64,000 nucleotides of DNA from Xanthobacteraceae bacterium. Its GTDB lineage: Bacteria > Pseudomonadota > Alphaproteobacteria > Rhizobiales > Xanthobacteraceae. Under the pieces are notes generated by a model. It saw only the letters and a program-made list of their open reading frames with translations, had not been told where the DNA came from and made no database searches. Location: positions 1-64,000 of the forward strand of contig JALHLQ010000019.1 in the NCBI GenBank assembly GCA_022844485.1. The letters are read 5' to 3'. This document shows, in pieces, positions 5,749-33,285 of the stretch. Position numbers and translations under genes: made by a program. Each line of letters begins with the position of its first letter. Within the stretch, counting starts at the first letter, position 1.

Positions 5749-5916
5749 CTAGTGGTCCGATTCTAACATTCGCATCCCGTTGCGGCAGGCCATTTTGCGA
5801 ATGTTAGAATCGAAGGACCACTAGCAAATTCAAATTGCTAGTGGAGTTTTGGATTTGACATTCGCCTTGTGAACCCGCTGCTAGATGGGTAGCGAATGTC
5901 AAATCCGCTCCACTAG
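5749..5916. repeat. Composite hairpin unit A+B bounded by CTAGTG...CACTAG, copy 1
   Basis: Hairpin A 5749-5824 (CTAGTGGTCC-GATTCTAACATTCGCA / TGCGAATGTTAGAATC-GGACCACTAG), spacer CAAATTCAAATTG, hairpin B 5838-5916 (CTAGTGGAG...GGATTTGACATTCGC / GCGAATGTCAAATCC...CTCCACTAG); near-identical unit at 32597-32763. Confidence 0.92.
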
Positions 5917-31784: not shown

Positions 31785-31877
31785 GCCACGGACTTTTTGT
31801 CCCCGCATCGCGCCGGACAGGCCGAACCTTGTCGCCGCCCAGCCGTTGTCGCGCACGTTCCCGACATGGAGGTTGGA

Positions 31878-32420
31878 ATGGGACTGCTCGATGGCCTGTT
31901 AGGCGGAGACCGCTCGCGTTCAGGCGGCGGCGTCTCGCCGATCACTCTCGCGCTGTTGGCGCTCCTTGCCTATCGCACTTATCAGGGCAAAGGACGGCTC
32001 GCGGACATGCTGGACCGCGGCGAGCCCGGAGCGGCGTCCGGATCAGGCGGGCTTGGGGGCCTGTTGTCGGGATTGGGCGGCAGCGGATCCGCGGGCGGCG
32101 GGTTGGGAGGCTTGCTGGGGGGCGCCGCGGCGGGCGGGCTGCTGAGCGGCGGCCTTGCCGATCTCGTTGGCCAGTTCCAGCAGTCCGGGCGCGGCGATGT
32201 GGCGGACTCCTGGGTCGGCCGTGGGCAGAATCGCGAGATCGCGCCTCAGGATCTCGAAGACGCCCTCGGACACGACACCTTGCGCTCGCTTTCCGAACAG
32301 ACTGGCCGCTCTTATCAGGAGGTGCTCTCCGAACTGAGCCGAAGCCTGCCGGACACCGTCGACCAGCTCACGCCGGAGGGCCGCTTGCCCTCGGAAGAGG
32401 AAGCGTCTCGCTGGGTCTAG
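31878..32420 (+). CDS. YidB family (DUF937-like) protein
   Basis: MGLLDGLLGGDRSRSGGGVSPITLALLALLAYRTYQGKG...GGLADLVGQFQQSGRGDVADSWVGRGQNREIAPQDLEDALGHDTLRSLSEQTG; start could also be 31866. Confidence 0.85.
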   Translation: MGLLDGLLGGDRSRSGGGVSPITLALLALLAYRTYQGKGRLADMLDRGEPGAASGSGGLGGLLSGLGGSGSAGGGLGGLLGGAAAGGLLSGGLADLVGQFQQSGRGDVADSWVGRGQNREIAPQDLEDALGHDTLRSLSEQTGRSYQEVLSELSRSLPDTVDQLTPEGRLPSEEEASRWV

Positions 32421-32435
32421 CGAGAACGCGCTGCC

Positions 32436-32513
32436 CTAGTGTGGCGGTTCGGAAGTCCGCATCATTCTTGCCGCAAGACCGCAATGCGGACTTCCGAACC
32501 AAAGCCACACTAA
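32436..32513. repeat. Hairpin C of CTAGTG-bounded family
   Basis: CTAGTGTGGC-GGTTCGGAAGTCCGCAT / 21-nt loop with TTGCCGCA / ATGCGGACTTCCGAACC-AAA-GCCACACTAA. Confidence 0.88.
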
Positions 32514-32525
32514 ATCAATAAGTTG

Positions 32526-32600
32526 CTAGTGTCTTTCGATTCCGAAATTCGCAAACGAGGTTGCCGCACAATGATGCGAACTTCGGAATCGGGACACTGG
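32526..32600. repeat. Hairpin D of CTAGTG-bounded family
   Basis: CTAGTGTC-TTT-CGATTCCGAAATTCGCA / 21-nt loop with TTGCCGCA / TGCGAACTTCGGAATCG-G-GACACTGG. Confidence 0.88.
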
Positions 32601-32763
32601 TGGTCCGATTCTAACATTCGCATCCCGTTGCGGCAGGCCATTTTGCGAATGTTAGAATCGAAAGACCACTAGCAAATTCAAATTGCTAGTGGAGTTTTGG
32701 ATTTGACATTCGCTTGTGAACCCGCTGCTAGATGGGTAGCGAATGTCAAATCCACTCCACTAG
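32597..32763. repeat. Composite hairpin unit A+B, copy 2
   Basis: About four differences from 5749-5916 over ~167 nt including a 1-nt loop deletion. Confidence 0.92.
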
Positions 32764-33285
32764 CCGCGCTGCATAGGCGTCCACCGCCGCCCAGTCCGTG
32801 TATTCGACTTGGGCCGTGGGCTCCGTGGGCCCTCCGGTCATCCACATGATGAAACGGATGATCTGGCGGTCTCGCCATGAATAGCGCGGATAATCGAGCC
32901 GGCCGGCGAAAGCCGTCGCCAGCGTCGGATCGAGCCGGTAACGCACGATCGCTTTGCGCGCATAGACGCTGCCGTCGGCCGTATCCTTGCCGGGTTTGCG
33001 GGCTGTCAGGTTGACGGAGGCGAAGGCAAGCGGCGGCTTCGTGGGCACGGCGGCATAGGTCTCGAGAAGCCGCAAGGCTTCGGGCAAATGCCGCCCGTAG
33101 CGGACGGCGGCGATCAGCAAGACAAAGCGCGCCGCTTCGAGGTCGGCGGATGTCGGCGGGGTGATCGCCGCATCACGGGTGGTCACCTGGGCATCGTTAT
33201 CGGACAGCCGCTCGGCGATGCGCGCGGCGATACGGCGCGCCTGGCCGTCCCGCGAGGCATAGAACAGCAGGATTTCGCCGCTCAC
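32746..33285 (-). CDS. Flavodoxin-domain protein (protoporphyrinogen oxidase HemG-like)
   Basis: MSGEILLFYASRDGQARRIAARIAERLSDNDAQVTTRDA...FVLLIAAVRYGRHLPEALRLLETY...YSWRDRQIIRFIMWMTGGPTEPTAQVEYTDWAAVD. Confidence 0.82.
   Translation of the reverse strand: MSGEILLFYASRDGQARRIAARIAERLSDNDAQVTTRDAAITPPTSADLEAARFVLLIAAVRYGRHLPEALRLLETYAAVPTKPPLAFASVNLTARKPGKDTADGSVYARKAIVRYRLDPTLATAFAGRLDYPRYSWRDRQIIRFIMWMTGGPTEPTAQVEYTDWAAVDAYAARLVEWI

Follow-up and report, generated by a model that had tools for sequence, protein, structure and literature searches.

The hairpin array at positions 32436 to 32763 of the window, i.e., the whole 64,000-nucleotide stretch of Xanthobacteraceae DNA analyzed here, probably comprises two members of a family of mobile DNA elements, short, noncoding, and nonautonomous, each of which is built from two bulged hairpins that face each other and is bounded by CTAG. 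Our best reading is that this family is order-wide, CTAG targeted, and apparently new, and that its elements are probably recognized as folded single-stranded DNA.

Two paired-hairpin elements with a common design

An initial inspection of the letters, made without database searches (the sequence-only reading), had placed four consecutive hairpins of common architecture at this locus. All four were confirmed (Table 1). When C, D, A, and B were folded as single-stranded DNA, none of 200 shuffles folded as well (z −6.2 to −11.8). The claim that D and B are inverted with respect to C and A was also correct: reverse-complementing B and D yielded a single-family alignment with A and C, which bears out the shared design. 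This runs from CTAGTG through an outer stem of 9 to 10 bp, an inner stem of 15 to 16 bp, a loop, and an A-rich bulge on the 3′ side to CACTAG, for a total hairpin length of 75 to 79 nt. The loop spans about 21 to 28 nt around a GCnGC core, and its length is near-constant within each hairpin type, with B departing from the 21 nt counted at first for A, C, and D.

Table 1. Coordinates of the elements, their parts, and the neighboring genes in the window
Feature	Position	Strand	Remarks
Element CD, 165 bp	32436–32600	+	Hairpin C, linker, and inverted hairpin D; left end CTAG, right end CTGG; recurs genome-wide as a separate unit
Hairpin C	32436–32513	+	AAA bulge on 3′ side; DNA fold z −9.6
CD linker, 12 nt	32514–32525	+	AT-rich
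Hairpin D	32526–32600	−	Inverted; linker-facing bulge; DNA fold z −6.2
CTGG common to CD and AB	32597–32600	.	Overlap of D and A; variant of the usual CTAG target
Element AB, 167 bp	32597–32763	+	Hairpin A, 13-nt linker, and inverted hairpin B; ends CTGG and CTAG
Hairpin A	32597–32672	+	DNA fold z −7.2
AB linker, 13 nt	32673–32685	+	CAAATTCAAATTG
Hairpin B	32686–32763	−	Inverted; linker-facing bulge; DNA fold z −11.8
Second AB element	5749–5916	+	98% identical; absent from the sequence-only reading
YidB-like protein gene (PF20159)	31830–32420	+	Upstream neighbor; gene ends 15 bp before the element
Flavodoxin-domain gene (PF12724)	32746–33285	−	Downstream, convergent; last codons (LVEWI-stop) come from hairpin B

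The repeat unit, taken at first to be the single hairpin, had to be corrected to a convergent hairpin pair, since CD and AB recur separately as units of about 165 bp each. When the genome that contains the window was searched by BLAST with the segment, 92 matches were returned, which break cleanly into query positions 14 to 179 (CD) and 178 to 345 (AB). Each unit comprises a hairpin, an AT-rich linker of 12 to 14 nt, and an inverted hairpin, with both bulges turned toward the linker; of 116 elements, 83 have a linker of 13 nt and 22 have one of 12 nt. From 37 hairpins, a covariance model was derived that identified 85 hairpin loci in the 4.15-Mb genome, 28 of which are intact convergent pairs with a gap of 12 to 14 nt, and many others are truncated by contig ends.

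Shorter derivatives accompany the full units. Solo forms of 73 to 76 bp, in which the outer arm of A is fused to the outer arm of B, are explained by deletion between the GCGAATGT direct repeats of the two hairpins, and single hairpins flanked on both sides by CTAG are also present. Perfect palindromes without a bulge, one of them with an inverted loop, were observed at two loci (L069:3723-3796 and L237:2203-2274), as if template switching had copied an outer arm anew into the place of the inner one.

Two features of the window locus itself deserve mention. Hairpin B supplies the final five codons and the TGA stop (32746 to 32763) of the flavodoxin-domain gene, whose original end appears to have been replaced through the insertion. 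Moreover, the AB linker can pair with the inner arms on its two sides into a different hairpin of 10 bp (32666 to 32692; CCACTAGCAAATTCAAATTGCTAGTGG), in competition with A and B.

Distribution across the order

Further copies were found both in the genome of the window and across the order. BLAST detected the elements in 18 of the 36 other genera of the same GTDB family and, at the same sensitivity, in 0 of 24 genera from other families. The covariance model, applied order-wide, was positive in 19 of 150 genomes and 14 of 90 genera, extending the range to at least 11 further families, and some of the positive genomes carry about 30 hairpins or more. Among the matches listed in a scan of named genomes are Nitrobacter, Afipia, Bradyrhizobium, Mesorhizobium, Rhizobium, Agrobacterium vitis, Martelella, Jiella, Aurantimonas, Pseudaminobacter, and Xanthobacteraceae metagenome-assembled genomes (MAGs), and plasmids from several of the matched genera bear single copies. 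A search of phage records gave no match; viral contigs yielded six loci. On one viral contig (IMGVR_UViG_3300010863_000004, region L374:4889-4912), a D-type hairpin has lost its loop and retained its stem and bulge. Locus L009 was considered as an ortholog of the window locus and rejected, the element being all that the two have in common.

The sequence-only reading had recognized no named family. In agreement with this, a search of Rfam gave no match at the gathering score, only subthreshold chance matches, and neither the arm sequences nor the paired-hairpin architecture was found in the literature searched.

Mobility and CTAG targeting

We are highly confident that the elements are mobile and CTAG specific. 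Copies of AB are 95 to 99% identical and lie in unrelated flanks. In three places, CD is nested within AB at the CTAG that separates the linker from hairpin B, and two such composites of 327 bp, on contigs C7 and C37, differ by 4 mismatches and again have unrelated flanks. The CD inserts of these two composites are 98.8% alike, compared with 85 to 96% to the other CDs tested; being closer to each other than to those other CDs, they indicate that the composite itself moved. Since 327 bp of CD-in-AB DNA thus moved as one, the mobile unit is defined by its outermost ends. An empty site adds to this picture. In A. vitis CG118, an element begins at the CTAG that holds the stop codon of an ABC-transporter gene, and the matching gene end in A. 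ampelinum S4 and A. vitis VAT03-9 has a bare CTAG without the element; the empty and filled sites align on one flank only, the right flank being without homology, and the palindromic CTAG masks the duplication length. Nested copies, the moved composite, and the empty CTAG site therefore bear out the mobility that had been raised as a possibility for these hairpins.

Both ends are CTAG in 63 of 120 elements, and one end is CTAG in most of the others. Where elements abut, exactly 4 nt are held in common in nine cases, with order and orientation mixed. Nested insertions convert one CTAG into two, with the palindromic target concealing the duplicated length, and the direct repeats seen at altered ends (CTGG/CTGG, CTCG/CTCG, and CCAG/CCAG) are too scarce to establish a duplication of 4 bp. 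A gene stop lies within a terminal CTAG of 13 of 76 elements; for the other CTAGs of this DNA, the figure is 31 of 269 (p 0.24), in line with what targeting of CTAG as such would give. None of the elements checked for gene disruption convincingly interrupts a gene. Six apparent interruptions were rejected as artifacts of upstream open reading frames. The elements thus multiply and insert at intergenic CTAG, sometimes at a CTAG containing the TAG stop of a gene, and they insert into each other's CTAGs.

Other insertion sequences (ISs) are also found at these sites. One of about 1.5 kb at L069:2022-3796 (G000 C3:180021-181796), encoding a 455-aa DDE_Tnp_1 protein and ending in TCGTCCGTGAAGAAC, sits in the hairpin B outer arm of an AB(CD) composite with CTAGTGGAG repeated at its flanks. 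IS427-type ISs occupy the CTAG or CTGG of elements at L080:3018-3960, L082:4510-4750 with L083:1-189, L099:437-511, and L307:1-321, and such insertions may be overrepresented at hairpin elements.

Arms kept complementary as DNA

The suspected covariation of the stems was confirmed and is strong. In the first alignment, 95.8% of cells were paired, compared with 79.8% upon shuffling and 25 to 40% in slid controls, and changes were two-sided in 17 of 26 pairs, counts that ignore kinship. Genus-weighted conservation of the four hairpin types, across 11 to 14 genera, amounted to 0.83 to 0.93 in the 5′ arms, 0.82 to 0.89 in the 3′ arms, and 0.62 to 0.64 in the loops. Pairing reached 96 to 98% in all four types with many positions altered on both sides, again counted without regard to kinship, and the inner arms and the bulge are conserved as strongly as the outer arms.

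A selected RNA helix is expected to tolerate G·U pairs. The mismatches include 56 G·T and 81 A·C, and none of the four types has an excess of G·T; as G·T is not favored over A·C, pairing is maintained as DNA rather than RNA. Recognition as either single-stranded DNA or RNA had been envisaged at the outset, and the DNA half of that proposal is favored over the RNA half by this result and by the lack of a U-tract. The arms of hairpins A and B of one element differ from each other yet match their own partners, which a protein-binding word common to them would not account for. Nearly all hairpins, moreover, retain a 2- to 4-nt A-rich bulge, which speaks against simple palindrome correction as the source of the pairing, although palindromes can be homogenized via template switching and two bulge-less palindromes were indeed seen. 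Overall, both arms are kept complementary at the DNA level with a one-sided A-rich bulge, and the loop and linker drift.

These data bear directly on the idea that the hairpins are an RNA structure maintained by the host at gene ends, i.e., a terminator, an RNase III site, or a stability element. The stems are very stable, and their position is intergenic, often directly at stop codons, as such a role would have it. However, placement at stop codons is what CTAG targeting predicts, G·T is not favored, and where the window locus seemed to have a counterpart in another genus, in a single case, the element alone is common to both and the flanks are not. A T run directly 3′ of the stems, as in Rho-independent terminators, was sought at the four window hairpins and is absent; the linker hairpin is the only terminator-like match. 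We therefore consider an RNA function of this kind very unlikely.

Candidates for the mobilizing enzyme

The proposed mechanism is that an enzyme supplied in trans would recognize the folded hairpins within single-stranded DNA, cut at CTAG, and rejoin at another CTAG; the inverted pair would present an identical hairpin on either strand, as in REPINs. Recognition of folded single-stranded DNA by the mobilizing enzyme is the likeliest mechanism, and one toward which we lean slightly. No enzyme linked to the elements was found. Nor was an autonomous copy found in the hairpin maps of genomes G000, G024, and G173 and arm scans of the fetched loci, or among the matches listed in the scan of named genomes. 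The copies seen there were tight pairs, solo forms left by deletion, or single arms in a decayed state; in the complete genomes G024 and G173, the hairpins occur as tight pairs or singles, with no widely spaced pair around a gene.

Paired inverted bulged hairpins with a short linker, present intergenically in high copy, are reminiscent of a REPIN/BIME family moved by a REP-associated tyrosine (Y1) transposase, and a linked enzyme of this kind had been suggested as the thing to look for. Three RAYT-like Y1 genes were located (L066, L067, and L068; G000 C32:6621, C10:27739, and C25:4572). Each Y1 gene of the window's own genome, however, lies within its own GTAG REP array, of the GTAGCCCGGGTTGAGCGCAGCGAAACCCGGG and GTAGGGTGGGCA types, and not among CTAG hairpins; the end tag of the elements is CTAG instead of GTAG or GGAG; and the hairpin-bearing genomes G009, G018, G024, G022, and G030, of which G009, G018, G024, and G030 are hairpin rich, have no Y1 gene. 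When the Y1 loci of the own genome and 60 relatives were checked, just one locus among the relatives had hairpin arms nearby. The suggested linkage thus failed, and the REPIN/RAYT interpretation is largely refuted and, in our judgment, extremely improbable.

The elements are noncoding and short and have terminal inverted repeats, as miniature inverted-repeat transposable elements (MITEs) do, and they could accordingly be MITEs of an IS5-family, IS427-group (IS711-like) DDE transposase, in which case the outer arms would be ordinary double-stranded terminal inverted repeats, and the hairpins would have arisen incidentally when the ends were duplicated. ISs of about 850 bp with two open reading frames (DUF4096 and DDE_Tnp_1), classified as IS427 type by Pfam and layout, also lie in CTAG in the same genomes, several of them inside or against elements. 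The outer arms of A and B are alike, forming imperfect inverted repeats of 25 bp, whereas in the inner arms CTAGTG and the core are separated by 3 additional bases; composite movement requires the outer ends only, and solo forms of 73 to 76 bp with outer arms only exist. Nevertheless, the ends of no IS found match the hairpin arms, and comparison of the ends of IS630 (one own gene) and IS5-type ISs with the arms likewise gave no match. The IS427-type ISs are present in hairpin-free genomes and absent from hairpin-bearing G002, G006, G011, and G022, and their presence does not track hairpin copy number. Conservation of the inner arms and bulge to the same degree as the outer arms also speaks against such an origin, and the solo forms are accounted for by deletion between the direct repeats. 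A MITE of this type, the main rival reading, is thus rather unlikely. Integron attC sites were dropped by eye, the ends having no R box. The fuller proposal, an order-wide family with CTAG specificity whose members travel as folded single-stranded DNA via an enzyme other than Y1/RAYT, is put forward tentatively, as a reading somewhat less likely than not.

Relation to known repeats

Several known systems resemble the elements in part. REPINs and BIMEs with RAYT, known from Pseudomonas and Escherichia coli with GTAG-tagged REPs, share the two inverted bulged hairpins, the short spacer, the intergenic position, the many copies, and the lack of coding capacity. The present elements differ in being bounded by CTAG and inserting at CTAG, in their size of about 165 bp with hairpins of 75 to 79 nt and loops of about 21 to 28 nt, and in having no Y1 link. 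GTAG- and CGTC-tagged REPs are alphaproteobacterial palindromic repeats of 20 to 40 bp, the CGTC class being without linked transposases (PMC3733652); their end tags differ from those described here, and CTAG is not mentioned in that report.

According to PMC3163539 and PMC2266754, IS711, a two-ORF IS, uses the Bru-RS1 and Bru-RS2 palindromic intergenic repeats of Brucella as insertion sites and duplicates TA at YTAR. The present elements likewise host two-ORF ISs at CTAG, and both kinds of repeat lie between genes in Hyphomicrobiales; the Bru-RS repeats appear to differ in their length of 103 to 105 bp and in being described as palindromes. The RIME, Sm, and ABC repeats of Sinorhizobium, cited in PMC2573895, are also intergenic, palindromic, and rhizobial. 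MITEs of IS5/IS630-type ISs, such as Correia/NEMIS and RUP, have in common with the elements a short noncoding sequence, terminal inverted repeats, and a specific short target. Unlike these, the elements have four arms in two self-contained bulged hairpins with equally conserved inner arms, and no parent IS was found. As for the RIME, Sm, and ABC repeats, they are shorter elements, and we know of no CTAG rule for them.

Implications

An abundant mobile element is thus common to genera as distant as Nitrobacter and Agrobacterium, and no description of it was found. If movement as single-stranded DNA without Y1/RAYT is true, it would represent a new pairing of a hairpin element with a mobilizing enzyme. 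The element raises the testable question of which enzyme moves bulged DNA hairpins at CTAG without RAYT. The CTAGs of the elements serve other insertion sequences in turn, an echo of the IS711 and Bru-RS relationship in Brucella. The CTAG rule can put copies on TAG stop codons with the gene unharmed, and the element can therefore occupy gene 3′ ends.
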